From positions 569,501 through 633,500 of the forward strand of contig NW_024067737.1 in assembly GCF_009389715.1 (NCBI RefSeq): a DNA stretch of 64,000 nucleotides, read 5' to 3'. This DNA comes from Phoenix dactylifera. Lineage: Eukaryota > Streptophyta > Magnoliopsida > Arecales > Arecaceae. Below the pieces are notes generated by a model that searched no databases, had not been told where the DNA came from, and saw nothing but the letters and a program-made list of their open reading frames with translations. Of this stretch, positions 4,516-50,222 are shown piece after piece (position 1 is the stretch's first letter; every line of letters begins with the position of its first letter). The translations under genes were made by a program, and so were the position numbers.

Positions 4516-5453
4516 TCATATTTTCATTTTGGGTACCCAAGCTTGCTTGGGTCCTTGAGAGTTAGGACATATGGTTCCTTTTGGAACCCAAATCTGTTTA
4601 ATAGTAATAACTTTACCATTTGATTTAATTGTACTAGAACTATAGGTAAAGTTGTTATGCCCATTCTTTTGATGTTTGAAATACGTTATCCTTTTTGATG
4701 ATTTGCTTGACGAATTTATAACCTTTTTTTTTAGGGATTCATTGCTAAGCGAAGGAGTCAAGCTAAATTTTGATTTATCAAAAACAGCATGTTGGCTTTC
4801 AAACATCATTTTTAATCTTTCTGAACTTACAGTGAATTTGTTAATAAAAGATTTTAATTGGTTAATTTCTTCACTTAAGTTTTGATTTTTTTAATTAAAT
4901 TTTGATTTTTCTGAATTAATTATTCTAAATTTAACCTTAAGCTTTCATTTTCAGAATTTAGTTTGTCTTGTATTTCAGCAATAGAATTTCTTTTTTTTGA
5001 AATTTTCAGATTTAGTTTTTTAAGATTTTTATTCTTCATAGCTAATTTTCTACATTCACCATACAAATCATGAAAAGCATTTAATAATTCATCATAAGAG
5101 AATTCTTCTTGAAAAACATTTGATGTAAAAGTAGATTCAGATTTTACCTTATCTTCTTGTACCATAAAGCACAAGTTAGTTATCTCTTGTAGTTCTTTGG
5201 AGCTAATATCATCACTCTTGCTCCTAACTTTCATTTTCTTGCTTGACTCTTTTTTGGTCAAGGCTTTCTTTCTTTTTATCTCTTTCTTCCTTTCTTCTTG
5301 CTTCCTCTTCTTCTTTGTCTTTAGGAAGCTTTTGAATTTTTTTGTTGTTCTTTCTTCCTCGAGTCGACTCGGGTTTACTTGGAGTCGACTCGACTGACTT
5401 GAGAGGCGACTCGAGATCTTCGGAAGACGTCTCGTTCTCAGAGGCCTAAAAAA
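4516..5453 (-). pseudogene. Decayed copia gag, C-terminal part
   Basis: Two minus-strand open stretches (5453-4920 and 4809-4516) match the C-terminal half of the young gag. The first holds a lysine-rich segment, the CFMVQEDKV motif (young copy CFMANEDEV), the FSYDELLNAF motif and a coiled coil. The second ends in the paired WVPKGT and AWVPKMK motifs and a stop at the same point as the young gag. A frameshift/stop interval separates them at about 4810-4920. Its upstream end, 5361-5412, carries three copies of the GAGTCGACTC array spaced 21 bp (5361, 5382, and a variant at 5403). The gag continues at 17087 beyond the inserted young element. Confidence 0.8.
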
Positions 5454-5458
5454 CAATT
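5454..5458 (+). repeat. Target-site duplication CAATT (left)
   Basis: CAATT directly precedes the TG of the young 5' LTR and is repeated exactly at 17087-17091 after the CA of the 3' LTR, as expected for integrase-made 5-bp duplications. Confidence 0.95.
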
Positions 5459-5639
5459 TGTGGAGTGATTGATTAAAACCCCGTTTGATTTTGATGAGCT
5501 CAAAGCATTTGAGTATATCGTGTGATTACTAATGAATTCAATTGAGTGTTTCAGTGAAAATCCTGCTCAAGTGTTTCTAGACATGGTTTACAGTATTTTG
5601 GATAAGTTAAGAAGTCTGCTGAACCAATGTCTGAGACTC

Positions 5640-6462
5640 GAGTCGACTCCCGAGTTTCACGAGTCGACTCCAAGCGTATCAAGGTCACTGGCACGAGCTC
5701 GAGTCGACTCCTAATCAGTATGAGTCGACTCCGACTGAAAACAGACAGAAGGATAGAAGAGCAGTCTTTCAGATCTGAGATTCGAGTCGACTCCAGTGGA
5801 ACGCGAGTCGACTCCCAGCGGTGCACAAAGAAAAAGTCAGAGAGTGTTTTATGGACTCTGAGATTCGAGTCGACTCCAGTGGAACGCGAGTCGACTCCCA
5901 GCGGTGCACAAAGAAAAAGTCAGAGAGTGTTTTATGGACTCTGAGATTCGAGTCGACTCCCGCATTACGCGAGTCGACTCCAAGATTGTGCGACCATCAA
6001 CAGAGAAAACCATGTTACTGCCACTGAGATTCGAGTCGACTCCCAGACAGCTCGAGTCGACACCAAGACAAGCTTCACGTCAAAAGGCAGAAGACCAACT
6101 TTCGGAAACTGAGAGCCGAGTCGACTCCAAGGAAGTTCGAGTCGACTCCAAGACTGGATGAGCCAAAAGACAGAGAATCGGGAGTTCGGGCTCTGAGATT
6201 CGAGTCGACTCCCAGGACAGTCGAGTCGACTCGAGAGGGCAAAATTCAAATTTGTATCCACGGTCTACAGAGGAAAAGCCGACTCCAAAATTGCCAGGTC
6301 AGCGCCAGAAGTTGGCGAGTCGACTCCGGGCCAAGACGAGTCGACTCCCAGTCGTGACGGCAACTTTAATTCAAACTTGGAACAGTTGCCGAGTCGACTC
6401 CTGAAAAGCTTGAGTCGACTCCCGCTACAGCCGAGTCGACTCCTGATCGCGCGAGTCGACTC
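5640..6462. repeat. 21-bp-phased GAGTCGACTC palindrome array (U3)
   Basis: Twenty-two copies of the 10-bp palindrome GAGTCGACTC start at 5640, 5661, 5701, 5722, 5784, 5805, 5867, 5888, 5950, 5971, 6033, 6054 (one mismatch), 6118, 6139, 6202, 6223, 6317, 6338, 6391, 6412, 6433 and 6453. They fall into pairs whose start-to-start distance is 21 bp in every case but the last (20). The 11-bp spacers within pairs differ in sequence, and the pairs repeat at about 83-85 bp over much of the array. Gaps between pairs often hold a CAGACAGAA-like motif. The array ends about 90 bp upstream of the TATA-like box. Inference: binding sites for a dimeric factor on one face of the helix, two turns apart. Confidence 0.95.
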
Positions 6463-6553
6463 CAACCCACCAACGGTCACATTGTCAGGCTGCGCAGAGT
6501 GTGCAGAACGGCCAGAAAAAGTGGAGTAACGGCTAGTTTCCGTGGGGGTTGGC

Positions 6554-6560
6554 TTAAATA
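6554..6560 (+). promoter_or_regulatory. LTR TATA-like box
   Basis: TTAAATA within GGCTTAAATAGCC lies directly downstream of the palindrome array. Equivalent boxes sit at 27714 (solo LTR), 47083-47089 (minus-strand LTR) and as TATAAAA at about 18828-18834 (old LTR, minus), always between the array and the hairpin chain. Transcription would start about 25-30 bp downstream. Confidence 0.65.
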
Positions 6561-6880
6561 GCCACAGAAGACTGTAGCAAAATAGAGAACATACATTCCA
6601 CTCCAAGCATTCAAGTCTTCAAGCTTTGCAAGTGCTCTTCAACGAGAAAAAGGGGAGATCAGCATTTACTGCGCCACCAACTTCTCCCCAGCATTCAAAG
6701 CTTCCTCCTCCTACATTCAAGTCGATCACTCATCCAAGAGGAGACCAGAGTCAAGAAGCCATTCCTCTACTTAAGCTTAAAAGCGTTTGAGGGCTTCTAA
6801 ACTCATCCTTGAATATATTGTTTCATACCTGCTTTTGAGAAGCTTATTTTCTGTTTTCTTTCTACTACGTGTATTTACTT

Positions 6881-7164
6881 GGTTCAATCGGGGGATTGAA
6901 TCAAGGGGATAAAGGTTAGTTGGTGAGCCAGTTTTAAAACCAACGTGTGAAAGGGTTTGATTGTGAGCCCGGGAAAACAATCGGGGTTGGTTCTAGTCGG
7001 TGAGCCTGGGAAAACCGACCGAGTTCGTTGTTAGCTCGTAAAACAACAAGTTTGGTTGTGAGCTTGCAAAACAACCGGCTGTAATCCAAGGGGGTTATAG
7101 TGTATTCCCAAGAGAAACTTGGGGAGTGGACGTAGGAGCAAGGGATAGCTCCGAACCACTATAA
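6881..7164 (+). ncRNA. Chain of nine covarying hairpins in LTR R/U5
   Basis: Consecutive inverted repeats: GGTTCAATC/GATTGAATC (6881-6902), GTTGGT/ACCAAC (6919-6944), GATTGT/ACAATC (6959-6982), GTCGGT/ACCGAC (6996-7019), GTTGT/ACAAC (7027-7047), GGTTGT/ACAACC (7054-7076), CTGTAATCC/GGGTTATAG with two G-U pairs (7079-7100), TTCCCAAG/CTTGGGGA (7105-7125) and GGAGC/GCTCC (7135-7152). An outer stem TTATAGTG/CACTATAA (7095-7102 with 7157-7164) could enclose the last two, competing with the seventh. Hairpins 2-6 share a loop of the type GAGCYYGNRAAA although their stems differ. The region lies in the genomic RNA leader before the PBS. It is present in all four LTRs of the window with compensatory changes. 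Function unknown; packaging, dimerisation or translation control are candidates. Confidence 0.8.
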
Positions 7165-7346
7165 AACTTGTGTTTGTGATTGATTGTCTCTTCCTCTTCT
7201 CATTTCATATTGCTCACAGCACATAGTAATTAATTAAATAACTTGGCATAGTTTTTAATTAATCATCCATAACGTTTTAAATTATCCAAATTGTTTTAAA
7301 ACCCAATTCACCCCCCCCCTCTTGGGTTGTCTATCTGGGCAACAAG

Positions 7347-7358
7347 TGGTATCAGAGC
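7347..7358 (+). promoter_or_regulatory. Primer-binding site (initiator Met tRNA type)
   Basis: TGGTATCAGAGC, two bases after the 5' LTR, is the usual complement of the 3' end of plant initiator methionine tRNA used by Ty1/copia elements to prime minus-strand DNA synthesis. Confidence 0.9.
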
Positions 7359-7393
7359 CAAAAACTCTTCCACTCAAGAGTTAAAAGATCAAA

Positions 7394-9163
7394 ATGACAA
7401 CCCCATTTGGATCTTCTCACATTGAGGGTCAGTCCACCCAAAGACCCCCTTTCTTCAATGGATCCGACTACTCATACTGGAAGGCTAGGATGAAAATATT
7501 CATCCAAGCCCAAGACTATGAGATGTGGACCATTGTTGTAAATGGCCCATACATCCCATCCATATATATAGATGGTGTCAAGGTACCCAAACTAGAAACG
7601 GATTGGGATGAACATGACATGAGGAAGGCACAATTAAACTCTAAAGCAATGAATGTCTTCTATTGTGCCTTAGACCGTAATGAATTCAATAGGATTTCAA
7701 CTTGTAATTCAGCAAAAGAAATTTGGGACAGACTTGAAGTGACCCATGAGGGCACGAATCAAGTCAAGGAATCCAAAATAAACATCTTGGTTCATAAATA
7801 TGAACTATTTAAAATGGATTCAAATGAAACTATCACATCCATGTTCACTAGGTTTACTGATATTGTCAATGGCCTAAAAAGCCTTGGCAAGAACTATACT
7901 AACAGTGAGCTTGTCAGGAAAATCCTTCGATGTCTACCGAGGTTGTGGGAAGCTAAAGTGACAGCGATCCAAGAAGCTAAAGACTTGAACAAGCTTCCAC
8001 TTGAGGAGCTCCTTGGATCCCTGATGACTCACGAACTCACCATGAAACAACACGAGGAAGAGTCTTCCCATAAGAAAAAGGTAATAGCTTTAAAATCTAC
8101 TTCTTCTAACAAGGACTTATCTTGCAGCAGCAGCAGTGAAGAAGAAGAAGATGAGGAAGATGGTGGTGAGGCTCTTCTTGTGCGCAAATTCAAGAAATTC
8201 ATCAACCACAAGAAGTCCTATCATCAAAGGAGAGGGCCCTCAAATTTCTACCGGAAGGACAAAGGTAAGGAAAGAGAAAACGAGGGGATTGGATGTTACG
8301 AGTGCAAGAAGCCGGGTCACATAAGAGCTGAATGCCCCTTACTGAAGAAGGGGAGTAAGTACAAGAAGAAGAAAGCTCTTGTCACTACACTATCCGACTC
8401 CGACTCATCATCCTCCTCTTCTGACGAGGAACAAGAAGAAAAGGCCAATTTCTGCTTCATGGCCAACGAAGACGAGGTAACTTCCGATACGCATCCTGAT
8501 TTTTCTTTTGATGAACTTTATGATGCGTTCAATGAATTAATGATTGAGTATAAGAATATAAATGTTAAAAACAGAGAACTAAAAGTAACTAATCAAACTT
8601 ATATTCATAAGCATGATTCATTAATTAAGGATAAAGATAATCTTACCAAAGAAAATCTAGAACTTAAGACAAGCAATCAACTTTTAATTAAGAAGACTAA
8701 CACCTTAACTAAAGATAATGAAAAACTAACTAAGGAACTTTCAAACCATAAACAAGTCTTAAACAAGGATCTAACAAAAGAACTAAATGATTTAAAAACA
8801 GAAAATCAAACATTAACTAAAGAACTTAACAAATACAAACCCTTAGTTGAAAAATTTACATATAGTTCAGAAAAGTTAAACATGATACTAAATAGTCAAC
8901 GTGCAGTATTTAATAAAGCAGGCTTAGGGTACAAACCAAGGAATAAGCAAAAACTTCTTAGTAATTTCTTTGTTAAAGCTGGGGAAACAAAAACTAAGAA
9001 AATCACCTGTTTCTGTTGTGGAAATATAGGACATAAAGCAAATACATGTGACTATAGGAAAAGGAAAACTAAAAGAAAAATTAAAAGGGTATGGGTTCCA
9101 AAAGGAACCAACTTGACTAACCATGAAGGACCCAAGAAAACTTGGGTACCTAAGATGACATGA
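7394..9163 (+). CDS. gag: Copia Gag nucleocapsid/capsid protein
   Basis: A 589-residue Gag that would assemble the cytoplasmic virus-like particle. The N-terminal third is a UBN2/copia-type gag domain (FFNGSDYSYWKARM near residue 20, AKEIWDRL near 108). Serine/acidic and lysine-rich segments follow around residues 230-290. There is a CCHC zinc knuckle CYECKKPGHIRAEC at about 301, a long asparagine/lysine/leucine-rich coiled coil at about 400-510, and a second CCHC knuckle CFCCGNIGHKANTC at about 539. The protein ends with the paired WVPKGT and TWVPKM motifs. Long gags with two knuckles fit SIRE/Maximus elements. The ATG follows the PBS by about 35 bp. The TGA at 9161-9163 separates it from pol, which lies in another frame. 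The frame is intact, consistent with recent activity. Confidence 0.93.
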   Translation: MTTPFGSSHIEGQSTQRPPFFNGSDYSYWKARMKIFIQAQDYEMWTIVVNGPYIPSIYIDGVKVPKLETDWDEHDMRKAQLNSKAMNVFYCALDRNEFNRISTCNSAKEIWDRLEVTHEGTNQVKESKINILVHKYELFKMDSNETITSMFTRFTDIVNGLKSLGKNYTNSELVRKILRCLPRLWEAKVTAIQEAKDLNKLPLEELLGSLMTHELTMKQHEEESSHKKKVIALKSTSSNKDLSCSSSSEEEEDEEDGGEALLVRKFKKFINHKKSYHQRRGPSNFYRKDKGKERENEGIGCYECKKPGHIRAECPLLKKGSKYKKKKALVTTLSDSDSSSSSSDEEQEEKANFCFMANEDEVTSDTHPDFSFDELYDAFNELMIEYKNINVKNRELKVTNQTYIHKHDSLIKDKDNLTKENLELKTSNQLLIKKTNTLTKDNEKLTKELSNHKQVLNKDLTKELNDLKTENQTLTKELNKYKPLVEKFTYSSEKLNMILNSQRAVFNKAGLGYKPRNKQKLLSNFFVKAGETKTKKITCFCCGNIGHKANTCDYRKRKTKRKIKRVWVPKGTNLTNHEGPKKTWVPKMT

Positions 9164-9176
9164 TTTGCTTGTGTAG

Positions 9177-12100
9177 GAGTGTCTTGCAGCCAAGGTCAAC
9201 AAAAATTGCTGGTATTTGGATAGTGGCTGCTCAAGGCACATGACGGGTGATAAAGACCAATTTTTCACCCTTGAAGCTAAGAAGGGAGGTGTTGTGACGT
9301 TTGGAGACAACAACCAAGGTCACATCATTGGCATTGGTAAAGTTCAAATCACCCCTTCTACTTTTATAGATAATGTTAGATATGTTGATGGTCTTAAACA
9401 TAACTTGTTAAGCATTAGTCAATTATGTGATAAAGGATATGATGTTATGTTTAAACCATCACTATGTATTATAACAAATCCTAATGATAATAGTTTGGTC
9501 TTTAAAGGGATTAGACGTGGAAATGTATATGTTGTAGACCTAGAAGATCTTGCAAAACATAACCAATGTCTAGTTGTAAATGAAACCAAAGAAAATGATG
9601 CTAGTTGGTTATGGCACCGTAAGTTAGGTCATGCAAGCATGGACACAATAACTAAACTAGTTAAAAGAGACTCCGTGATAGGTTTGCCAAAATTAAAATT
9701 TGAAAAGAACAAAATCTGTGAAGCATGTCAATTTGGCAAACAATCTAGGAATTCTTTTAAATCCATAAAATGTGTCTCTACCTCTAGGCCTCTAGAATTA
9801 TTACATATGGACTTATTTGGTCCTACTAGAACAACAAGCCTAGGTGGAAATAAATATGGTCTAGTTATAGTAGATGATTACTCTAGGTACACATGGGTCA
9901 TGTTTCTAGCGCATAAGGATCAAGCATTTTCTATGTTTAAGAAGTTCCACAAGGAAGTAACAAATGCTAGAGAATCCTCAGTTATAGCTATTAGAAGTGA
10001 CCATGGTACCGAATTCGAAAATCAATTATTTGATGAATTTTGTAGCAAAAAGGGGATAACCCATAATTTCTCAGCACCTAGGACACCACAGCAAAATGGA
10101 GTTGTTGAAAGGAAAAATAGAACACTAGAGGAAATGGCTAGAACGATGTTATGTGAAAGTAACCTCCCTAAGTATTTTTGGGGAGAAGCCATTAATACTT
10201 CTTGCCATATATTAAATAGAGTTCTATTAAGACCCATCATAAAGAAAACACCATATGAACTGTGGAAAAACAGAAAACCAAAGGTTAACTATTTTCATGT
10301 TTTTGGATGTAGGTGTTTTGTACATAATAATGGGAAAGATAATCTAGGGAAATTTGACCCTAAATCTGATGAAGGAATATTCCTAGGTTATTCTACAACT
10401 AGTAAAGCCTATAGAATCTTTAATAAAAGAACTCTAGTTATAGAAGAATCCATACATGTTGTTTTTGATGACTCTAGTGACATCTCATCTAGTAAGAAGG
10501 TTAATTTTGATGATGATATTGAAATACTTGAAGAAAAGATAGATGAGATGGGATTACGAGATGATAATCAAAAGTTGATTGAAGGAGAATCATCAAACCA
10601 AGAGCCTATAGTGGATCATGGGCTAACTAAAGCTTGGAGGTATGCTCACGGGCATCCTAAGGAACTAATTCTAGATGATCCATCACAACCGGTTAGGACT
10701 AGAGCATCCCTTAGGAATATGAATAATCATCTAGCCTTTGTTTCACACTTTGAGCCCAAACATATAGAAGAAGCCGAAAATGATGTAAATTGGATAAATG
10801 CAATGCAAGAAGAACTAAACCAATTTACTAGAAACAAAGTGTGGGATCTAGTAGAGAGACCTTCTGAATATCCAATTATTGGTACAAAATGGATATATAA
10901 AAATAAGCTAGATGAAAATGGAATTGTTATACGGAATAAGGCTAGACTAGTAGCAAAGGGTTATAATCAAGAAGAAGGTATAGACTTTGATGAAACCTTT
11001 GCTCCCGTAGCTAGACTTGAGGCTATTAGACTATTATTAGCATATGCATGCTCTAAAGATTTCAAACTATTTCAAATGGATGTAAAGAGTGCATTTTTAA
11101 ATGGGTATATTAATGAGGAGGTGTATGTAGAACAACCTCCTGGTTTCGAAAATCATCAATACCCTAATCATGTGTATAAACTAAACAAAGCACTTTATGG
11201 GTTAAAACAAGCACCTAGAGCATGGTATGAGAGACTTAGTAAATTCCTATTAGAACATGAATTCTCTAGGGGAAATGTAGACACAACATTATTTCTGAAA
11301 AGACAAAATAAGGATATGTTGTTAGTACAGATTTATGTTGATGATATCATTTTCGGTGCCACTAACAATCGCCTCTGCGAAGAATTTGCTGATTTGATGC
11401 AGAGTGAGTTTGAAATGAGCATGATGGGAGAACTGAACTACTTCCTCGGGCTTCAAATCAAACAATCTGAAGAAGGCATCTTCATCAATCAAGCAAAATA
11501 TATCAAGGAGATGCTCAAGAAGTTTGATATGGAGGGAAACAAATCAATCAGCACCCCCATGAGCTCATCATGTAAGTTAGACCAAGATGAATCAGGTAAA
11601 TCCGTCGATCAAAAACTTTATAGAGGTATGATAGGTTCTTTACTGTATCTTACTGCAAGTAGACCTGATATTATGTTTAGTGTGTGCATGTGTGCTAGAT
11701 ATCAGGCTAATCCTAAAGAATCACACCTAGCTGCAGTTAAAAGAATCTTTAAATACTTAATAGGAACTAAGAACATAGGACTGTGGTACTCTAAAGAATC
11801 TAGCCTAAACTTAATAGGGTACACAGATTCAGACTTCGCTGGATGTAAACTTGATAGAAAAAGTACCAGCGGGTCTTGTCAATTTCTAGGAGAAAACCTA
11901 ATCTCATGGTTTAGCAAGAAACAAAACTCGGTTGCATTATCCACTGCAGAAGCTGAATATGTTGCAGCCGGGAGTTGTTGTGCTCAAATCTTATGGATTA
12001 AACAACAATTAGAAGATTATGGCATTAAACAAGATGAAATCCCCATTAATTGTGATAACACAAGTGCCATAAATCTAACTAAAAATCCAATTCAACACTC

Positions 12101-12278
12101 AAGAACTAAACACATTGAGATAAGACATCACTTCATAAGAGATCATGTATTGAATGGTGATGTGTCACTCCACTTTGTGTGTACTGATAATCAATTAGCA
12201 GATATTTTCACAAAACCCCTAAGTGAAGAGAGATTTAGTGTGCTTAGAAGGGGATTAGGAGTGATTGATCCATCCTAG
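9177..12278 (+). CDS. pol: Copia Pol polyprotein (PR-IN-RT-RNaseH)
   Basis: An open frame of about 1030 residues that opens after a TAG at 9174-9176; no ATG precedes the protease core, so the start is undefined. Domains in order: aspartic protease [13 protein letters not shown] (9210 on); pre-integrase zinc-binding HHCC region (WHRKLGHA ... CEACQFGKQ); integrase core with D in HMDLFGP, D in RSDHGTEF and E in [14 protein letters not shown]; reverse transcriptase with [21 protein letters not shown] and the catalytic YVDDIIFG; RNase H with [16 protein letters not shown] and LADIFTKPL at the C-terminus. All catalytic residues are present and no internal stop occurs. It is in the +1 frame relative to gag, with both a gag stop and a pol-frame stop at the junction, so a single frameshift cannot fuse them. 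Confidence 0.93.
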
Positions 12279-12840
12279 TGGGAGTTACCACTAGATTAAT
12301 TGATTTTAATGATGAGAATGAGGTTAAAAGAGAGTTTCTATTCAATGATCATCATATCAGTCCTTAATTAGGTGATTTTCCCTCATTTGGCGCGATTATA
12401 GCAAGAGTTTTAAGTGCGTGCCAAGGTTAGAGACGACTCGAGTAAGTTTCAGAGCCGGCTCCTAAGGGGGAGTCGACTCGCGCATTTGCGGGAGTCGACT
12501 CGCAAAGCTGGCAGCAAAAGGGGAGTCGACTCGCGCATATTCTGGAGTCGACTCGAGGTCGAGTCGACTCGCGACTCAGGGGAGTCGACTCGCAGTCGGG
12601 ATCCGACTTTTTAACCCTAGGTTTGTCGTTTCGCAAACACTTTTCCTCAAGCCGCCACTGTTCACAAAGCCCTAGAGCCGACTCCTAGGTCATCCCCGAT
12701 CGTCTCCAAGCCTTTTTCCCGTCGATTCTTCGCCGGACATTGAGTTTCCATCCGTTCCTAGGTCATTTCCGGTCCGTCCCGAGCTTCCTCTGTCCGTCCT
12801 TCATCGTCCTCAAGGTATTTTTATTCCCGTTTAGGTCAAG
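12279..12840 (+). other. Pol-ORF3 spacer with second palindrome cluster
   Basis: This non-coding interval turns from AT-rich to GC-rich. It carries six GAGTCGACTC copies starting at 12470, 12492, 12523, 12545, 12561 and 12582, with spacings of 22, 31, 22, 16 and 21 bp, about 250 bp upstream of the ORF3 ATG. A pyrimidine tract ending TTTAG at about 12834 lies just before the ATG and could act as a splice acceptor for a subgenomic ORF3 RNA. That is inference; no matching donor was identified. Confidence 0.7.
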
Positions 12841-14424
12841 ATGCCTCGTAAGGCCGTCGTTAGGAAGAGGTCCCGTCCCGCGGCCGTTCCCGAGCGGCGC
12901 TCCAAGGCGCGGCATGATCCCGCGAGGCAACCACCTCCGGATCGTTCCCCGCCTAGGGAGGTTCATGTTAGGCCATTGGCCGGGAAGGCCGTCTCCACCG
13001 GGAGGTATGTCGATTTTGACTTCCTCTCCCGGGAAGGGTTCACCATAGGCGATAGGCTTAGAGCCCAGGGTCTAGAGTACTTCCTCACCTTGGACCTTCC
13101 CACCTATCCTGGCCTAGTTCAAGAGTTCTATAGTACCGTCCATCGGGGAGATGGAGGTATTGAGGGCACGGTATTAGGTGTCCCATTACGTGTCACGGAG
13201 GATCTCGTTGCCCATATCCTCCACCTTCCACTGGTAGGGGTAGCTCCTGCACATCCTGAGGATAGATTTGAGGCCCTTACGATCGTCTTAGGGCAGCCAC
13301 CTCAGTCCCCCCTAGATGAGGTATCTGCTAGCTCACTTCCTATTGAAGTGAGAATCCTCTTGAGCATTCTATCCAGGTCCATCTTCCCTAAGACAGGAAG
13401 ATTTGATTTTGTGAATGAGAGGGACCTAGCTATTATGTCTTACATTCTTCAGGACACCCCGGTCAACTTCCCCAAGCTGATTTATAGGTATATGTGCGAG
13501 CCTTTAGATAGACCTAGGCTCTCCCTCCCATACGGGATGGTATTCACTCTCCTGTTTAGGCAGTACGAAATTTCCATTCCTGAGAGGGAACCCTCTCGTG
13601 CCTTGCGATGGACTGATCGCTTGGGTACGGGGACCATGCACAGGATGGAATTTCGGAAGAAAGACGGGATCTGGGTTAGGAAGTCCACTCTCACTGCTCA
13701 GACCACCAGACCATCACCCAGTCCTGAGCCAGACTCTGATTACCCAGACTCTCCACATCATCCAGACCTTCCATCCACTCCTCCTGCTCCTACCACCTCT
13801 GCCGGACCTTCCTCCTCAGCTCCACCATCTATGGAGGTCCGTATTGATCCAGAGCAGCTCCGAGAGCTGCGGCAGGAGATCGTCCGAGATTTGAGGGACG
13901 AGCTGCTCCGGGAGCTCCGAGGTTCCGTGCCAGCTGCCACTCCTGCACCCACTCCTGCACCCACTCCATCCTCCGTATTGGTGCCATCCTTGACAGCCGT
14001 GACAGACATGACGGCTAAAGTGCGGGAAGAGATATATAATATCAGGGATTTGATGCAGGCCCAGTTCCGCAACATGAGGGAGATCAAGAGCACCACTCGA
14101 CAGTTTCGAGAGGAGATAGGCCGTGACATGCACACCACTACCGAGGGGGCCGAGCGCTTGTCGAATGTGATTGTCGGCAAGCTGGACGCACTTCAGACCT
14201 CAGTGACTGGGCTTCAGACGTCGGTGACTGAGCTCTCCACTATGCACAGCAGAGCCACCTCGTCTATCATCACACAGCTTAGCCATGTCACAGAGGCAGT
14301 CGCCCTCCTCATGGAGCGGAGCAGATTGGGAGGAGGAGCCACATCCTCCAGAGGAGGAGACGCATCCTCGAGAGGAGGAGCTACATCCTCGAGAGGGGGA
14401 GCTACATCCTCGAGGAGGACATAG
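12841..14424 (+). CDS. Third ORF of copia element, unknown function
   Basis: A 527-residue protein in the position of the envelope-like ORF of SIRE elements, but I see no convincing transmembrane segment or signal peptide. Residues 1-45 are strongly basic and proline-rich (MPRKAVVRKRSRP), like a nuclear or nucleic-acid-binding tail. About residues 55-285 form a globular domain (GLEYFLTLDLPTYPGLVQEF near 78, VTEDLVAHILHLP near 120) that resembles the 'putative plant transposon protein' domain found in many plant retroelements; this match is from memory and untested. A Pro/Ser/Thr linker follows (about 290-335), then an Arg/Glu/Leu coiled coil (about 340-365) and further helical segments to about 480. 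The tail has repeated GGATSSR units. It is visibly GC-rich, unlike the AT-rich gag and pol. The frame is intact. Confidence 0.8.
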   Translation: MPRKAVVRKRSRPAAVPERRSKARHDPARQPPPDRSPPREVHVRPLAGKAVSTGRYVDFDFLSREGFTIGDRLRAQGLEYFLTLDLPTYPGLVQEFYSTVHRGDGGIEGTVLGVPLRVTEDLVAHILHLPLVGVAPAHPEDRFEALTIVLGQPPQSPLDEVSASSLPIEVRILLSILSRSIFPKTGRFDFVNERDLAIMSYILQDTPVNFPKLIYRYMCEPLDRPRLSLPYGMVFTLLFRQYEISIPEREPSRALRWTDRLGTGTMHRMEFRKKDGIWVRKSTLTAQTTRPSPSPEPDSDYPDSPHHPDLPSTPPAPTTSAGPSSSAPPSMEVRIDPEQLRELRQEIVRDLRDELLRELRGSVPAATPAPTPAPTPSSVLVPSLTAVTDMTAKVREEIYNIRDLMQAQFRNMREIKSTTRQFREEIGRDMHTTTEGAERLSNVIVGKLDALQTSVTGLQTSVTELSTMHSRATSSIITQLSHVTEAVALLMERSRLGGGATSSRGGDASSRGGATSSRGGATSSRRT

Positions 14425-15199
14425 ATGATTTTGAGTTGTGTTTTATCTTCTTTTGTATTGTTTTTGCCTTACTTATAGTATGCTCAAATGTATTCACCTT
14501 CATATCAATACAATGAGTAGACATCTTATCTTTATTTCTGTGCCAATTGACTGTGCCATTTGATGTTTGATTGTGCCATTTGTGCCATTGATTGTGTGTG
14601 TGATTACCTCCTTTTTGATATGATGACAAAAAGGGGGAGAAATATGTATAAAATATGTAATAAGGGGAGAAATATGGTTAAAATATGTAAAAGAACTCTT
14701 AAAAACACACACAAATTTGTTCTAAGTGGATTCGGTACCTCGAGGCTCATTATCTCTCTTTTGGGGCTCCTAATGGAGTAATCTCCAGAATCTATTCAAG
14801 GGATATTCGGAGATTAGCTTAATCGTACTCAAGAACAAATTGACAGATTTTCCCTCTAAAAACAAAAAATTCAGTTCAAAAATTTCAAAGCATTAAAAGG
14901 AAATTCAGAAAACTAAAACTAGTTGAATGCATATGTTGAGGGGGAGAATCTGAATTTTAATCAAGATAAATCATTGATAACATATAAGCCAAACAATTGA
15001 TTGCATAATATGGAGGCTTATATAATTCCAAATGAAAGGGGGAGCTTTAACTCCGAAATTTAAATGTTTCACACCTTTCAAACTTGGATAAATTAAATTT
15101 TCAGACATTTGAATTCACTTATGAATTTTATTTCATTATTTATTGAGCAATTCATTTTACGTATACTCAAAGTTTTGTCATCATCAAAAAGGGGGAGAT
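14425..15199 (+). other. Post-ORF3 UTR with repeated purine tracts and PPT
   Basis: AT-rich, no gene. Purine tracts resembling the polypurine tract recur at about 14625-14640 (AAAAAGGGGGAGA), 14938-14947, 15037-15046 and finally 15186-15198, the last just before the 3' LTR and therefore the expected plus-strand primer site. A short TGTGCCATT motif repeats near 14540-14590. Confidence 0.75.
15186..15198 (+). promoter_or_regulatory. Polypurine tract
   Basis: AAAAAGGGGGAGA immediately upstream of the TG of the 3' LTR (two bases, TT, lie at the junction), the canonical position for the plus-strand DNA primer. Confidence 0.9.
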
Positions 15200-17086
15200 T
15201 GTGGAGTGATTGATTAAAACCCCGTTTGATTTTGATGAGCTCAAAGCATTTGAGTATATCGTGTGATTACTAATGAATTCAATTGAGTGTTTCAGTGAAA
15301 ATCCTGCTCAAGTGTTTCTAGACATGGTTTACAGTATTTTGGATAAGTTAAGAAGTCTGCTGAACCAATGTCTGAGACTCGAGTCGACTCCCGAGTTTCA
15401 CGAGTCGACTCCAAGCGTATCAAGGTCACTGGCACGAGCTCGAGTCGACTCCTAATCAGTATGAGTCGACTCCGACTGAAAACAGACAGAAGGATAGAAT
15501 AGCAGTCTTTCAGATCTGAGATTCGAGTCGACTCCAGTGGAACGCGAGTCGACTCCCAGCGGTGCACAAAGAAAAAGTCAGAGAGTGTTTTATGGACTCT
15601 GAGATTCGAGTCGACTCCAGTGGAACGCGAGTCGACTCCCAGCGGTGCACAAAGAAAAAGTCAGAGAGTGTTTTATGGACTCTGAGATTCGAGTCGACTC
15701 CCGCATTACGCGAGTCGACTCCAAGATTGTGCGACCATCAACAGAGAAAACCATGTTACTGCCACTGAGATTCGAGTCGACTCCCAGACAGCTCGAGTCG
15801 ACACCAAGACAAGCTTCACGTCAAAAGGCAGAAGACCAACTTTCGGAAACTGAGAGCCGAGTCGACTCCAAGGAAGTTCGAGTCGACTCCAAGACTGGAT
15901 GAGCCAAAAGACAGAGAATCGGGAGTTCGGGCTCTGAGATTCGAGTCGACTCCCAGGACAGTCGAGTCGACTCGAGAGGGCAAAATTCAAATTTGTATCC
16001 ACGGTCTACAGAGGAAAAGCCGACTCCAAAATTGCCAGGTCAGCGCCAGAAGTTGGCGAGTCGACTCCGGGCCAAGACGAGTCGACTCCCAGTCGTGACG
16101 GCAACTTTAATTCAAACTTGGAACAGTTGCCGAGTCGACTCCTGAAAAGCTTGAGTCGACTCCCGCTACAGCCGAGTCGACTCCTGATCGCGCGAGTCGA
16201 CTCCAACCCACCAACGGTCACATTGTCAGGCTGCGCAGAGTGTGCAGAACGGCCAGAAAAAGTGGAGTAACGGCTAGTTTCCGTGGGGGTTGGCTTAAAT
16301 AGCCACAGAAGACTGTAGCAAAATAGAGAACATACATTCCACTCCAAGCATTCAAGTCTTCAAGCTTTGCAAGTGCTCTTCAACGAGAAAAAGGGGAGAT
16401 CAGCATTTACTGCGCCACCAACTTCTCCCCAGCATTCAAAGCTTCCTCCTCCTACATTCAAGTCGATCACTCATCCAAGAGGAGACCAGAGTCAAGAAGC
16501 CATTCCTCTACTTAAGCTTAAAAGCGTTTGAGGGCTTCTAAACTCATCCTTGAATATATTGTTTCATACCTGCTTTTGAGAAGCTTATTTTCTGTTTTCT
16601 TTCTACTACGTGTATTTACTTGGTTCAATCGGGGGATTGAATCAAGGGGATAAAGGTTAGTTGGTGAGCCAGTTTTAAAACCAACGTGTGAAAGGGTTTG
16701 ATTGTGAGCCCGGGAAAACAATCGGGGTTGGTTCTAGTCGGTGAGCCTGGGAAAACCGACCGAGTTCGTTGTTAGCTCGTAAAACAACAAGTTTGGTTGT
16801 GAGCTTGCAAAACAACCGGCTGTAATCCAAGGGGGTTATAGTGTATTCCCAAGAGAAACTTGGGGAGTGGACGTAGGAGCAAGGGATAGCTCCGAACCAC
16901 TATAAAACTTGTGTTTGTGATTGATTGTCTCTTCCTCTTCTCATTTCATATTGCTCACAGCACATAGTAATTAATTAAATAACTTGGCATAGTTTTTAAT
17001 TAATCATCCATAACGTTTTAAATTATCCAAATTGTTTTAAAACCCAATTCACCCCCCCCCCTCTTGGGTTGTCTATCTGGGCAACA
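15200..17086 (+). repeat. 3' LTR of young copia element
   Basis: The 1887-bp direct copy of 5459-7344, offset by 9741 bp. Only two differences were seen: T at 15500 for G at 5759, and one extra C in the C-run near the end. It repeats the palindrome array (15381-16203) and the hairpin chain (16622-16905). Confidence 0.95.
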
Positions 17087-17091
17087 CAATT
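17087..17091 (+). repeat. Target-site duplication CAATT (right)
   Basis: Exact partner of 5454-5458, directly after the 3' LTR. Confidence 0.95.
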
Positions 17092-17662
17092 CTCTATCTT
17101 TTGAACTAATCTGCCTCGGAGTCGACTCGGGCTTTGTTGGAGTCGACTCGGCTAACTTGGGGGTCGACTCTGAAATACTTGGAGTCGACTCGTTCACAGG
17201 ATCTCCAAAACTGAGTCTCTGCCTTTCAGACTGTTTTCCTCTAGGAGTCGACTCGAACAAACTAGGAGTCGACTCGGCTGATATGGGAGATTCTACAGTC
17301 TCACTGTTAGTATGTAATTGAAGCACATGTGAGCTAATCTGAGATTTATCATAAATAATTTCTAAAGTATCCCAGATTTCTTTAGCAGATAAACATGCAG
17401 AAATCTTATTAAATATAGTTTCATGGATAGCACAATATAGTATGTTCATAGCATTAGCATTCAATTGTGCTAAGTCTTTTTCATTAATAGTTTGAGAGAG
17501 TGTGTGAAGGTCATTTATTATGATATTCCATAAATCATAGTTTTGTGATTGAATAAAAATGCGCATGCGTGCTTTCCAATGTGTGTAGTTTATGCCATTA
17601 AATAGTGGAGGTCTATCAATTAATTATCTCTCTCCTAGAAAACTATCTATTTGAGTTGTCAT
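17087..17662 (-). pseudogene. Decayed copia gag, N-terminal part, with ESTP repeats
   Basis: The minus-strand gag start (ATG at 17662) is followed by a stop at codon 13, then a recognisable N-terminal gag domain (RPPLFNG, HWKARMRIFIQS, NAMNILYCAIHE, SAKEIWDTLE). Where the young gag continues with the second half of the UBN2 domain, this copy switches to a repeat domain of ESTP heptads encoded by the GAGTCGACTC array (17266, 17245, 17182, 17161, 17140, 17119, mostly 21 bp apart). The gag then continues at 5453-4516 beyond the inserted young element. About 130 residues of normal gag are missing at this point, so the array replaced or displaced them. Confidence 0.8.
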
Positions 17663-17710
17663 GATCTTTGGCTCTTGATCGTAAGATCAACAATTAATCT
17701 TAGAGCACCT

Positions 17711-17722
17711 GCTCTGATACCA
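17711..17722 (-). promoter_or_regulatory. Primer-binding site of old copia element
   Basis: On the minus strand this reads TGGTATCAGAGC, two bases from the LTR end at 17725, confirming the orientation and the LTR boundary of the old element. Confidence 0.9.
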
Positions 17723-18091
17723 CTTGTTGCCCAAGGTGACAACCCAAGAGGGGGGTGAATTGGGTTTTCTAAAAATTATATTCCCTTTTGAATTGAATGC
17801 AGCGGAATGATAAGATGTTATTTACTTAAGCTCTAGGCAATTATAAGTAAAGCAGTAGAAAATTAAGTTAGAGCAATTATATTATGGCTTTAGGGTGCAA
17901 TTGATCTAAAATCAACTTATAGTTGTATGATCAATTTTAATCTATGTGAATAGTAAGAATGGAGTGGAAGCTAAGCAAGTTCTAAACAATCACTTATAAA
18001 TCAATTGGAAACAAAGCTAGAGATATTACACAATCAAGTATGAATGTAAGGCATGAAACATAAGAGATAAGGCATCACAAACACAAAGATG

Positions 18092-18472
18092 TATAGTGGT
18101 TCGGTGCACCCCAGCACCTACATCCACTTCCCAAGACCTCTTGGTAATTTCACTATAACCCCTCAGATTATAGCCGGTTGTTTTACAAGCTCACAACCTA
18201 ACTTGTTGTTTTCACGAGATCACAATGAACTCGGTCGGTTTTCACAGGCTCACCGACTAGAACCAACCGATTGTTTTCCGGGTTCACAATCAACCCAGTT
18301 GGTTTTCTCAAAGGCTCACCAACCACAACCTTACAACGATTGTTTTCCGGGTTCACAATCAACCCAGTTGGTTTTCCCAAAGGCTCACCAACCACAACCT
18401 TACAACGTTGGTTTTATACTTGGCTCACCAACAAACTTTAACCCCTTGATTCAATCCCTTGATTGAATCAAG
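18092..18472 (-). ncRNA. Expanded hairpin chain in old LTR
   Basis: The minus strand carries the same hairpin chain as the young LTR, but with the GTTGGT/ACCAAC and GATTGT/ACAATC hairpins present as extra tandem copies, giving eight GTGAGC-loop hairpins between 18176 and 18432. The first stem is a perfect 12 bp (18445-18456 with 18461-18472). The last hairpin is GGTGC/GCACC (18103-18118), where the young copy has GGAGC/GCTCC, a double compensatory change. The outer stem TATAGTG/CACTATA (18092-18098 with 18151-18157) is kept. Confidence 0.8.
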
Positions 18473-19396
18473 TTACAAGATATTAGAACAAGGGTTTAAA
18501 ACAAATACAAGCTTCTTAAACAAGCAGATATAACAATGTAAACAAATAGAGTAAAGAGAAGAAGCCCTCAAATAAGTTTTGTAGATAAAGGAACTCGGCT
18601 TCTTCTTTACTTGATTCTTTTCTGATTTCACACGAGGTAGAGGATCACTGAGGCAGCATACAGTTCGAAAGGAAGCTTTGGGATTCACTCGGATACTCTT
18701 CTTCTCTCACTTTTGCTTTGAATGGCCCTTTTGTGCTTTTGGAAGGTTTCTCTTGAAATCTTCTTGAAATCTCTTCCCTATGTGTTCTCTCCCACTTTCT
18801 TAACTTTTCCCCTAGCTTTTCCCTTGATTTTATAGCTTTGGATGGCATGGGAACAAAGATCTAGCCGTTAGAGACAAAAATAGAGCTGTTGGAGTTGAGA
18901 AAAAACTAGCTGTTATGCCTCCCAGCGTGCTCGAGTCGACTCGGCTGAAGCAGGAGTCGACTCGACTGAAGCAGGAGTCGACTCGGCTGGGAGTCGACTC
19001 GAGCACTGCAGCGCTGAAAATCAACTCTCTGTCTTTTTGTCTGTTCTCAGTCGGAGTCGACTCGCAAAATCCCGGAGTCGACTCGAGCTCTGTTCCTTGA
19101 AACTCCAGAGTGCCAGAGTCGACTCTGAACTTCCAGGAGTCGACTCGAGGACTATTCTTTTGAATCTTTCTTTGAATTTGCTCCAACTTGAATCCTTTGA
19201 ACTTGAAACTTGGGCCAATGAAGTGTAGCTTTCTTCCAACTTTTCTTGAGAGCTTTTGAGGCCTTCTTGTATTTTTCCAACTTGCTATGTTCCTTGCAAA
19301 ACAAATTATCTTTCTTCTTGCAACACAAGCATTAGTAATTATACTTCAAGATTTTGTGATCATCAAAATTAATCTTTAAATCAATCTTTAGGTCAT

Positions 19397-20754: not shown

Positions 20755-32297
<11,543 letters not shown>

Positions 32298-40990: not shown

Positions 40991-43201
40991 AGGTGCTTTA
41001 ACCGTTCCTGCATTGACAAGTCTATGCACATTAGCAATGCTCAAAATTTTTTCACAGCAAAATTTTATGTAAGCAGAAACAGGGATATGCAATTTGAAAA
41101 TTTATTAATCCTGCAACTGCATAGTCACCAATGGGGGTGGAAGCAATCAACAAAGTTCTGCAAATGACAAGCAAAGCTAATGAGACACAAAGCAAAGACA
41201 TGGTAGCTAATTCCCTTACTTTTCCCTAATCTTGACAAGGTTCCAACTTGACGGCCATCTCATGGGTATTTCAAATTTCAACACCATCAGAATACTGCCT
41301 CAATTCATCAGGGTTATCCAAATTTCAACTAAAGAGACAAATTGACAAACACGAATCAGTAAGTTAACAATAACAATAAACCAAGAAGATTTTGAAGGCT
41401 TTATGACTTAGCTTTAACCTTTATAAAACCATTTAAGATGAAATAAAAGAATAAGCAAATATAATAAGAAAGAATCCATGAAATTTAGCAGAAAATCCAT
41501 TGAAAATGCTTGCTTTGAAGACTCGTGAAGTAGTTATTTATGTGGAGAGAAAGAGAGAAAAGAGGGATCAGGGAAGGAGAGCGGCAGACGGCAGCAAAAG
41601 AGCGGCCGAAGTGAGAAGCTGCGGTGGTTCAGAGACAATTCAAGTCTAACAATCGCCATATAATAGAAGAAAACTTTGCTATGCAACTAAAACTGAGAAA
41701 ACAAGGCATAAATAATGACATTCAATGGAAGGAAAACGCCCAATTCAAGCACACAACTGGCAGAACATATTCAGTTCATTGGATTAAAAGATAGAAGAAC
41801 ACTCAAGATCAACGAACAGGATTATATAAACTTAGATACCGCCAAAGGTCACCAAAATCCACCAAAAAGTCGAATTTGAAGCATAGAAAGCGAAAGTTTC
41901 GTACTTTGCCTTCAAAACAGTGCTACGGTGTCGTGAATCCGTGGAGAAACAAGCCGAAAACCGAACCGATCGGAGACCTACGAATGCTCTCTTCAGAAGG
42001 GGGATGCCAGCCAGAGAGAAAGAAGATGGAGGTGAGAACGGTAGGAATCAGCAGAGAAGGGAGGCTTCCACCATTGCTGCTTAAGCCGCAGCAACTCCGT
42101 GGTAAGACCGAGGCTCCCCCACGCCACGCCTCAATAAAATTAAATTAAGAATTTTTATTCGGTACCTAAAGCATTTTTTACCCAGGCTTCTCTCTCTTAT
42201 TTCAATATGGGTAAAACTAAAAAAAGCAAAGGTAAACCGGTTAAAACCGGAAGGCTAGGTAAAATGGGAATTTTCCTTCCCATCCGGTCAGACCTTTCCC
42301 ATCTCATCACGGAATGCTTTGAGATATGGGCCTGAGCCGGGTAGAATGAAAAGTTTCCTTCCCATCCATCACGCAACGCTTTGATTTGTGCTTGCTTTCC
42401 TTAAAGCTATTTGAGTCCGTTTGGAAAAAATGCAGATGGTTCAAAATGCTTTGAGATATGTGCTCACTTCCCATCTAATACCTGAGTCCATTTGAAAAAA
42501 AAAAGAAAATTGTAGGTCCTTCGGAATGCTTTGAGAGATGTGCTCGCTTCCATTTGAGTCCGTTTGGGAAATGTGAATCATGGAAAAGGAGAAAGTCTGC
42601 AACAGGTGATTGAAAGAGAGGCAAAAATCAGAACTTTGGCTTTAGACTTCAGCCAAATTATAAATAAATCTATATATTTTTATTTATACGATAAATTAAT
42701 AAACATGCATCACCATTAAAAATAATATAAATGGTCATAAATTTTTAGAATATTTTACTGTAATTTATCTGGGTAAAAATTTTAAGTATTGTATCGGTCC
42801 TCTTAAATTAATTCTCCTAAAAACAAGTAAATTTGAATTAAAATTTTCTCCTCCCCAAAACACCCTTAAGAACACGACGGAAGGCTGACATTTGGTTGAT
42901 AGAACAGAGGGAGATAAACGGAAAGAAGAGAGGAAAGAAGAGCCCTCTTCAAAATTTAAAAAAAAAATAAAAAATTCAAAAAAAAGAAAAATTGGGCATG
43001 TTGAAAAACCAGGCATCTTGGCCATGAAGGAGTCCAAATAAAAAGGAAAAGCAGAAAAAAAGAATAAACCATGTGTCTTGGTAGCATATTTCAAATAGAT
43101 CCTATTGAAGAAAGTTATTTTCTTCTACATCTTATCGCACAGAATCAATCTAACAAAAGATTTATAAGTATATTGTTTCTCTCCTTACTTATTTAACTCT
43201 T
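40991..43201. other. Upstream region of PPR gene and intergenic sequence
   Basis: It contains the probable leader of the PPR gene on the minus strand. A GC-richer patch at about 41870-42140 holds a short plus-strand open frame, which may instead be a leader exon of the PPR gene. At about 42310-42560 an imperfect repeat with GCTTTGAGA.ATGTGCT and TTTGAGTCCGTTTGG occurs three times. No other gene recognised. Confidence 0.45.
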
Positions 43202-43206
43202 ATATG
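43202..43206 (+). repeat. Target-site duplication ATATG (left)
   Basis: ATATG before the gypsy 5' LTR, repeated exactly at 56069-56073. Confidence 0.93.
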
Positions 43207-46314: not shown

Positions 46315-48144
46315 CCCAAGAGGGGGGGGGGGTGAATTGGGTTTTAAATTAATTTGGATAATTAAAACGTTATGGATGATTAATTAAAAACTATTGCAAG
46401 TTATTTAATTAATCCTAAGTGCTGTGAGTGATGTGAGAGGAAGAAGAGAAGAGACAATCCAATGCAAACACAGAGTTTTATAGTGGTTCGGAGCTACCCC
46501 TTGCTCCTACGTCCACTCCCCAAGTCTCTCTTGGGAATTCACTATAACCCCCTTGGATTACAGCCGGTTGTTTTGCAAGCTCACAACCAAACTTGTTGTT
46601 TTACGAGCTCACAACGAACTCGGTCGGTTTTCTCGGGCTCACCGACTAGAACCAACCCCGATTGTTTTCCCGGGCTCACAATCAAACCCTTACACACGTT
46701 GGTTTTAACTTGGCTCACCAACCAACCTTAATCCCCTTGATTCAATCCTCCGATTGAACCAAGTAAATACAGTGTGTAAAAGAAAACAGAAAACAGCTTC
46801 TCAAAAAGCAGATAAAAACAATATGAACAATAAATGAAGTTAAGAAGCCTCAAACGCTTTTAGATCGGAGATGAGGAATGGCTTCTTGAACTTCTGGTCT
46901 CCTCTTGAAAGAGTGGTCAACTTGAATGCAGGAGGAGGAAGCTTTTAATGTTGAGAAGATGTAGTTGGATGCAGTTATTGCAGATCTTCCCTCTTTTTCG
47001 TTGAAGAACAAGTTGCAGAGTTGAAAGCTTGAATGCTTGGAGTGGAATGGTTGTTCTCCCCCTTGCTACAGTCTTCTGTGGCTATTTAAGCCAACCCCCA
47101 CGGAAACTAACCGTTACACTGCTTTTTCTGTCCGTTCTGCACACTCTGCGCAGCCTGACAATATGACCGTTGGTGGGTTGGAGTCGACTCGCGCGATCAG
47201 GAGTCGACTCGGCTGTAGCGGGAGTCGACTCAAGCTTTTCCGGAGTCGACTCGGCAACTGTTCCAAATTTGAATTAAAGTTGCCGTCACGACTGGGAGTC
47301 GACTCGTCTTGACCCGGAGTCGACTCGCCAACTTCTGGAGCTGACCTGGCAATTTTGGAGTCGGCTCATCCACAGAAGTCCGTGGATCCAATTTTGAATT
47401 TTGTCCACTCGAGTCGACTCGACTGTCCTTGGAGTCGACTCGAATCTCAGAGCCCGAACTCCCGATTCTCTGTCTTTTGGCTCATCCAGTCTTGGAGTCG
47501 ACTCGAACTTCCTTGGAGTCGACTCGGCTCTCAGTTTCCGAAAGTTGGTCTTCTGCCTTTTGACGTGAAGCTTGTCTTGGAGTCGACTCGAGCTGTCTGG
47601 GAGTCGACTCGAATCTCAGAGGCAGTAACATGGTTTTCTGTCTGTCGATGGTCGCACAGTCTCGGAGTCGACTCGCGTATTGCGGGAGTCGACTCGAATC
47701 TCAGAGTCCATAAAATGCTCTCTGACCTTTTCTTTGTGTACCTCTTGGAGTCGACTCTTACTACCCTGGAGTCGACTCGTTGAACATTGGAGTCGACTCG
47801 CGCACTTCAGGAGTCGACTTGTTGACAGGTTCTGAGATGAGGCTTTCTGTTCTTCTTTCTGTTCTCAGTCGGAGTCGACTCGTACTAGTCTGGAGTCGAC
47901 TCGAGCTCGTGCCAGTGAACTTGATATGCTTGGAGTCGACTCGTGATACTCGGGAGTCGACTCGAGTCTCAGACTTTGGTTCAGCAGACTTCTTAACTTA
48001 TCCAAAATACTATGAACCAAATCTAGAGACACTTGGACAGGATTTTCACTGAAACACTCAATTGAATTCATTAGTAATCACAAGATATACTCAAATGCTT
48101 TGAGCTCATCAAAATCAAATGGGGTTTTAATCAATCACTCCACA
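46315..48144 (-). mobile_element. Truncated copia LTR replacing gypsy RT
   Basis: A 1830-bp copia LTR in reverse orientation. Its right end is complete (TGTGGAGTG on the minus strand, boundary at 48144). Its left end lacks the last 18 or so bases (TGTTGCCCAGATAGACAA) and begins at CCCAAGAGG. It holds 22 palindromes in 21-bp register (47181-47963), a TATTTAA box at 47083-47089 and the hairpin chain (46478-46763). There is no target duplication. The gypsy frame resumes directly at RLRPYFQAH of RNase H, so the whole RT domain is missing. Confidence 0.9.
47181..47963. repeat. Palindrome array of gypsy-nested LTR
   Basis: GAGTCGACTC starts at 47181, 47201, 47222, 47243, 47296, 47317, 47411, 47432, 47495, 47516, 47580, 47601, 47665, 47686, 47748, 47769, 47790, 47811, 47872, 47893, 47933 and 47954. 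Every within-pair spacing is 21 bp except the first (20). Pair-to-pair distance is 82-85 bp over 47411-47872. Confidence 0.95.
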
Positions 48145-50107: not shown

Positions 50108-50222
50108 AACCCCTAGGGGTTCAAGACAATCAGGATTATGGACTCAATCTCTTTTCTGCAAATGATTTGCCTATTTCAATGATTATAATTCTCCTCTAAT
50201 GTTGGGTCGTCTGTGATCCTCA

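Follow-up and report, generated by a model that had tools for sequence, protein, structure and literature searches.

Tandem hairpins sharing one loop motif in the long terminal repeats of Phoenix dactylifera Sirevirus-type elements, a candidate protein-binding signal of the genomic RNA

Introduction

What would maintain a chain of short hairpins, different in their stems and alike in their loops, just ahead of the primer binding site of a plant retrotransposon? The question is raised by a 64,000-nucleotide stretch of Phoenix dactylifera DNA (assembly GCF_009389715.1, contig NW_024067737.1, positions 569,501 to 633,500 of the forward strand; hereafter the window, numbered from its first letter), which holds a young Ty1/copia Sirevirus-type element, here element A, with the hairpin array in both of its long terminal repeats (LTRs). 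An original prediction, made from the letters alone, had proposed a selected RNA structure at this place. Large parts of some plant genomes consist of Sirevirus-type elements and, to our knowledge, little is known of how plant LTR retrotransposons select their own RNA.

Results

Anatomy of the array

Nine consecutive hairpins occupy 6879-7159 in the LTR of element A, between a TATA-like box and the primer binding site.

6879..6904, forward strand: H0, hairpin with an 11-bp stem, pair probability 1.00
6919..6944, forward strand: H1, unit with inverted repeat GTTGGT/ACCAAC
6959..6982, forward strand: H2, unit with inverted repeat GATTGT/ACAATC
6996..7019, forward strand: H3, unit with inverted repeat GTCGGT/ACCGAC
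7027..7047, forward strand: H4, unit with inverted repeat GTTGT/ACAAC
7054..7076, forward strand: H5, unit with inverted repeat GGTTGT/ACAACC
7079..7100, forward strand: H6, hairpin of 9 bp including wobbles
7105..7125, forward strand: H7, hairpin of 8 bp
7126..7159, forward strand: H8, hairpin GGAGC/GCTCC at 7135-7152 on a 4-bp GTGG/CCAC base

The arms named in the original prediction (GTTGGT, GATTGT, GTCGGT, GTTGT and GGTTGT) are all present at 6919-7076, and the shared loop and the flanking hairpins it described were located as the five GAGCYYGNRAAA-type loops and as H0, H6, H7 and H8. The GAGCYYGNRAAA-type loop is common to five of the nine hairpins (H1-H5), set on unit stems of ~5-10 bp; its motif is a closing G-U/A-C followed mostly by GANC...AAA, with a loop length of 11-14 nt. 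Deviations within element A are an H4 loop that starts with T and a longer H1 loop (13-14 nt).

Seven non-overlapping perfect stems of at least 6 bp were counted in the array, whereas 2000 dinucleotide shuffles averaged 0.68 and never exceeded 4; at stems of at least 7 bp the array is not unusual (341/2000 shuffles reach its count). In a scan of 898 tiles of the window, 6 or 7 such stems were reached outside the arrays near 21230-21585 and 42601-42672, in tiles that are AT-rich by eye. The AT-rich stretch at 21372-21700 carries short inverted repeats as dense as those of the array. An expression for the loop with its closing pair gave 25 matches on both strands of the window, all inside five array copies, with fewer than one expected by estimate. 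A covariance model of H3-H6, built from four array copies, finds the five arrays at 139-143 bits; partial array matches aside, nothing else exceeds 15.4 bits, the score of a match at 53954, and the next, antisense to element B, has 12.3 bits. A search of Rfam gave no match at E up to 1 within 5400-18600.

Array copies, lineages and unit number

Of the five copies in the window, four are distinct.

6881-7164, forward strand: array in the 5' LTR of element A
16622..16905, forward strand: array in the 3' LTR of element A, identical to the 5' copy
28050..28330, forward strand: array A28, in a solo LTR (26634-28513) with CCAGT on both sides
46478..46762, reverse strand: array A46
18092..18469, reverse strand: array of element B (B18), with eight loop-sharing units and a two-hairpin module tandemly duplicated

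Searching 200 kb round the window with an array covariance model added three more B-type arrays (L043, L051 and L052) and a new lineage, C (L047 and L048). The number of loop-sharing units is five in A, A46 and A28, eight in B18, B43, B51 and B52, and six in C; in the B arrays it is the H1-H2 module that is repeated, i.e. growth was by a whole two-hairpin module. Unit order is flexible, H6-H8 are present in all 8 rows compared, and lineage C, by eye, has no H0. Counting nine arrays, which omits the identical 3' LTR copy and includes the nearly identical C47 and C48, there are 59 loop-sharing units: 21 of H1, 13 of H2, 7 each of H3, H4 and H5, and 2 each of two stems found only in C (TTTGGT/ACCAAA and CTTGGT/ACCAAG). 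A stricter expression lists 57, the two missed (in B18 and B51) each holding an A-C pair. Altogether seven Watson-Crick arm pairs occur, plus wobble variants.

In the genome, the 40 scored among 2097 first-look candidates for the family A array are identical to the query, and 4838 first-look candidates were obtained with the family B array, of which 40 were scored, at 95-100% identity. The at least 40 identical copies of the family A array, many of them paired ~7.8-10 kb apart and resembling LTR pairs, suggest a recent burst.

The outer stem that had also been proposed, TTATAGTG/CACTATAA, exists in the sequence. It uses bases of the H6 3' arm, so that the two are mutually exclusive; no compensated change was seen by eye in the 8 rows compared, B and C lack its last pair, and in array B52 one further pair is broken. 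Given the exclusion of H6 and the lack of covariation, the outer stem was dropped as part of the array. As an observation in its own right, the H6 3' arm (7092-7102) has two alternative partners, the H6 5' arm and CACTATAA (7156-7164), in largely conserved pairings that may form a switch.

Compensated stems and strand bias

The loop-sharing hairpins were treated as repeats of one unit, using trimmed units because MAFFT put gaps into short hairpins; in this set H4 has an unpaired outermost pair. Twelve distinct trimmed units hold 11 double-change cells against 2.7 in shuffles (0/500 as high), while neither the number of pairs with a two-sided change (82/500) nor that of pair types (148/500) is unusual. 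With 21 distinct units, 95.2% of cells are paired against 71.7% in shuffles, there are 25 double-change cells against 9.7, and the covariation score is 0.583 against 0.195, with 0/500 shuffles as high on each of these three measures. Counted from the outside, the second pair of the unit is U-A, G-C or A-U, the third U-A or C-G, and the fourth U-A or G-C, with a single G-U. The two innermost pairs, G-C and U-A, barely change and belong to the constant motif.

All three stem changes claimed across the LTRs are present, including U-G at 7085/7094 against U-A in the solo LTR, with the qualification that only GGAGC/GCTCC against GGTGC/GCACC is two-sided. The third, GATTGT/ATAATT, is kept by wobbles that amount to a pair of C-to-T changes in a single solo LTR, a pattern that deamination would also produce. 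In H8 an A-U to U-A double change separates lineages and occurs in 3/8 rows (15/500 shuffles as good), possibly as one event.

Pairing is kept across all nine arrays: over the units, H0 and H6-H8, 648/656 cells are paired (618 Watson-Crick, 30 G-U) and the remainder comprises 3 A-C and 5 other mismatches. Taken as distinct states there are 13 G-U against 3 A-C (p = 0.021), or, with the lineage C H7 pooled with H7, 12 against 3 (p = 0.035, by hand); these figures supersede earlier tallies of 9 against 3 (p = 0.15) and, with H6 off register, 11 against 4 (p = 0.12). The strand bias is modest, and an excess of G-U over A-C favours selection on the sense RNA over DNA symmetry. Together with the unit-level covariation and the presence of the array in lineages B and C, it supports the proposal of a selected RNA structure before the primer site, in an LTR part expected to be transcribed, and we regard a sense-strand RNA structure under selection as highly probable.

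Conservation between lineages

The array lies between the TATA-like box and the primer site in A, B and C. Between A and B it is 0.887 identical in aligned columns, against 0.678 (maximum 0.726) with shuffled B, whereas four coding pieces are at shuffled level (0.636-0.705); a fifth piece, pol 360-426 at 0.744, had no shuffled baseline, and raw identities are inflated by gaps. The stretch just upstream of the array (0.757) is slightly above its shuffled maximum of 0.725, and the downstream stretch is not above. In 50-nt bins of a gap-tolerant alignment, identity is 0.76-0.94 over 6809-7208, compared with 0.22-0.70 before 6809 (one exception of 0.86 in the palindrome region) and 0.72-0.81 after 7208. 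Elements A and C, with Gag proteins 52.7% identical, give five LTR matches (E up to 0.01), of which three fall in the array; of the other two, one covers the 3' end of the LTR and one, which is short, lies in the U3 palindromes.

The host element

Element A extends from 5459 to ~17086 on the forward strand with CAATT at both flanks, and its LTRs differ by 1 substitution and 1 indel over 1887 columns.

5459..7344, forward strand: 5' LTR, from LTR comparison and the CAATT flanks
6554..6560, forward strand: TATA-like box TTAAATA, near the LTR middle, from sequence
7343..7358, forward strand: LTR end, AGTGG spacer and 9-nt primer binding site TATCAGAGC, from sequence
7394..9163, forward strand: gag open reading frame (ORF), 589 aa, with domain matches to Retrotran_gag_2 and a zf-CCHC zinc knuckle
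12841-14424: ORF3, 527 aa, candidate env-like gene, with Transposase_32 at 44.2 bits, below the cut-off of 45
15200 to 17086, forward strand: 3' LTR, from LTR comparison

The features by which Sireviruses were recognised are those of Bousios et al. 2010 (PMC2829016). The 9-nt primer binding site after a CA/AKTGG junction is found as CA-AGTGG-TATCAGAGC at 7343-7358, and the polypurine tract octamer AGGGGGAG stands at 15190, 10 bp before the 3' LTR (15200), with further octamers clustered upstream at 12465, 14394, 14632, 14939 and 15037. Element A also has the AT/TG attachment site of Sirevirus type, a C-rich integrase signal near the LTR 3' end (AATTCACCCCCCCCCTCTT at 7305; similar signals at 17046, 28469, 17746 (-) and 46318 (-)), and a large gag with a zinc knuckle followed by an ORF with copia pol order, integrase (rve) before copia-type reverse transcriptase (RVT_2). 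The TTAAATA at 6554 deviates from the TATA consensus of that paper; transcription presumably starts ~30 nt past this box.

Element B, on the minus strand, has gag and pol pieces 35-45% identical to their counterparts in A, and its gag region appears to have received the insertion of element A. Seven copies of the palindrome GAGTCGACTC, at 17119-17275 and 5361-5391, lie in this apparent B gag region and flank the insertion on both sides. Elsewhere in the window there is a seven-copy 117-bp tandem repeat at 50197-51198, and direct repeats at 43206-44133 and 55110-56068, 97-99% identical and ~11.9 kb apart, are possibly LTRs or segments of another element.

Discussion

A candidate packaging signal

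The arms, the similar loops, the compensated stems, the change in copy number and the conservation in three lineages can all be read directly from the sequence. Where stems vary and loops stay similar, it is usually the loop that is being recognised, and its repetition suggests multivalent binding. Our leading interpretation, held tentatively and at somewhat less than even confidence, is that the array would be a signal for multivalent protein binding to the genomic RNA, most probably in Gag-mediated packaging. The leader RNA would consist of tandem short hairpins presenting one loop motif on interchangeable stems, followed by the fixed three-hairpin module H6-H8. The hairpins would form in the cell and, with less assurance, their loops could serve as repeated binding sites for one RNA-binding protein, such multivalent binding perhaps marking the genomic RNA. 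Gag, which the element itself encodes and which bears a CCHC zinc knuckle, would be the likeliest binder, and its binding would most probably lead to selective packaging into virus-like particles. Position and covariation fit a putative structured packaging signal in the presumed 5' leader.

Known systems offer partial parallels. Retroviral Psi and other RNA-virus packaging stem-loops present G residues in loops on short stems, several to a leader; Psi has few and unlike stem-loops, whereas the array has up to eight units with one loop, tandemly duplicated and within the LTR. Ty1, also a Ty1/copia element, has a structured RNA 5' region tied to Gag binding and packaging: Ty1 Gag prefers RNA holding its packaging region, and a 5' pseudoknot aids recognition, but the passages available of that paper describe no tandem array of same-loop hairpins (PMC8396678). 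The plant copia element BARE has named, conserved dimerisation and packaging signals; the available passages contain no hairpin array, nor the text available any word beginning "stem" (PMC3735527). We found no account of such an array in those parts of the literature that were covered; most subscription papers lie outside that scope, and this is not proof. In the portions available, a 2025 review on the life cycle of plant LTR retrotransposons covers packaging without the words hairpin or Sirevirus (PMC12786077), and a 2025 survey of plant structured RNAs has no word beginning transpos, LTR or copia (PMC12218528). Six short strings looked for in published sequences turned up in 18 papers, none of them a Sirevirus paper by title, and the one legume primer compared shares only 13 letters.

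Several results weigh against this interpretation. Across the four distinct window copies, 97.0% of 264 cells are paired with one two-sided change, and covariation is not significant (120/500 shuffles as good), so the original view that the four LTRs alone were strong evidence is not supported. Even in the 21-unit set two of five measures are null (two-sided pairs 107/500, pair types 168/500), and the shuffles ignore relatedness, which can inflate all the covariation figures. The loop bases are not constant either, with G, A or T in third position and, in some loops, A or T in first. Both LTRs contain the array, which would put it at both RNA ends should the poly(A) site lie further downstream; packaging does not need that. 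Nor does predicted folding favour the chain, the nine-hairpin structure of the 5' LTR copy scoring -75.9 against -114.7 for the minimum free energy fold, with similar gaps in A46, A28, B18 and C47. The pair probability of H2 is 0.00 in the A and B arrays (1.00 in C), that of H3 is at most 0.31, and those of H1, H4 and H5 range from 0.00 to 0.97 by copy. Block exchange between lineages by recombination could also keep the array alike, but does not explain the compensated stems.

As regards folding, cross-pairing is expected in silico because the arms are alike, and local co-transcriptional folding or protein binding may decide which hairpins form. The array has a minimum free energy z of -3.14 (2/200 shuffles as low). 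H0, H6, H7 and H8 have pair probabilities of 0.65-1.00 in five arrays with two exceptions, H6 in B18 (0.00) and the H8 base in A28 (0.02), which rise to 0.90 and 0.94 respectively when spans are limited to 60.

Alternative explanations

Rather than packaging, the array might bind a host or element protein for nuclear export of the unspliced RNA, or for its stability, in the manner of a Rex- or Rev-responsive element or a constitutive transport element. Repeated similar loops would suit cooperative protein binding, and the LTR part that holds the array is presumably transcribed, so that both RNA ends may carry it; against this, we know of no export protein for this element and the Transposase_32 match of ORF3 is only sub-threshold. 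On balance we think this unlikely.

Control of translation, with the array slowing or guiding ribosomes before gag or providing internal ribosome entry, is less likely again. The array does lie in the gag leader, and in A the 841 nt from the TATA-like box to gag hold 0 ATG and 16 CAT, where 9.4 ATG would be expected from dinucleotides, making scanning through the array plausible in A. That in turn makes internal ribosome entry unnecessary there, and with 1 ATG in the 846-nt C leader and 5 in the 1116 nt of B up to the primer site, an ATG-free leader is not general. Thirty extracted genome copies of the A array are also free of ATG in the array and near flanks, but having been picked for identity they are no independent evidence.

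A DNA-level reading, in which the array would be a downstream extension of the repeated motifs (RM boxes) of Sirevirus LTRs and act as cis-regulatory palindromes, starts from a likeness, since the passages available of PMC2829016 describe arrays with tandem inverted symmetry, in many copies, in these LTRs. They report RM boxes in 13/21 Sirevirus elements, one of those without a CGG-CCG core, and the word hairpin is absent from the text available. The LTR of element A itself has 21 exact GAGTCGACTC palindromes in U3 (5640-6462 of the 5' LTR), with 6 more at 12470-12591 just before ORF3, placed as RM boxes are but without the CGG-CCG core, and lineage C has GGGTCGACCC eight times in U3. The known boxes, however, repeat one constant palindrome whose arms are hardly or not at all spaced apart, and most of them stand in the upper half of the LTR, before the TATA box (PMC2829016, as far as available). 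In the array the arms vary, an 11-14 nt loop is kept, the position is past the TATA-like box and G-U exceeds A-C; it is not a constant palindrome upstream of a TATA box, and we give this reading little credence.

Dimerisation by kissing loops seems improbable: the H2 loop CCCGGG and the H5 loop TTGCAA are self-complementary in family A, but, judged by eye, the letters are changed in A28, B and C, and kissing between neighbouring loops is not kept either. Just as improbable are hairpins serving as targets or precursors of host small RNAs, or a neutral tandem repeat held alike by gene conversion. Structured Sirevirus LTR regions do attract small RNAs in maize, according to the passages available of PMC10760457, and tandem duplication is plain in B. 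The stems are only ~5-10 bp, however, and the array does not reach the microRNA-like precursor stability of that paper (110-nt windows below -40 kcal/mol), with 1/37 such windows in the 5' LTR copy and 1/36, 1/35 and 0/54 in the other three copies; 24/25 LTR windows below the threshold lie in U3, whose palindromes fit better. Neutral repeats, for their part, would not keep arms complementary while both sides change.

Other candidates were dropped. GAGCC, present in some loops, matches the 3' end of initiator tRNA, but pairing with it was rejected since GATCC and GAACC, which differ in the third base, occur as well. These variants likewise defeat the reading of GGTGAG in the loops as a U1-like 5' splice site, and an inner Y-R loop pair is not kept, by eye. 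Pattern scans of viral contigs gave no match, and a protein scan of them gave two pattern matches and no relative. Three bacterial pattern matches in prokaryote contigs are not relatives, ~4 being expected by chance (estimate). In the bacterial bin SKS1.bin43, the long hairpin GTATGTTGT/ACAACATAC occurs twice (L001 964-984 and L003 285-305), with loops GAGCCTGCGAA and GAGCTTGCAAA; match numbers are at chance level.

Implications for Sireviruses

A wider proposal, to which we attach somewhat less confidence than to Gag-mediated packaging in these elements, is that Sireviruses carry a modular, multivalent docking array of RNA, with a single loop motif set on stems that can be exchanged freely, its unit number letting one protein, Gag or a host factor, choose the genomic RNA. 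Such an array may date far back in the genus, and the tobacco Tnd-1 palindrome may preserve a hidden trace of it: the Tnd-1 box ACAATCGATTGT, present in 8 copies, is the only repeated motif without the CGG-CCG core in the available passages of PMC2829016, and it would be the junction expected from two abutting GATTGT...ACAATC hairpins of the H2 type.

A conserved, repeated one-loop hairpin offers a small, defined RNA for protein-binding tests, and arrays of five, six and eight units occur naturally as a ready-made set of valency variants. If true, the proposal would describe a new architecture for a retroelement leader signal, one expanded and contracted by duplicating whole hairpins, and would mean that the most conserved non-coding block of these LTRs can be RNA structure rather than promoter DNA.
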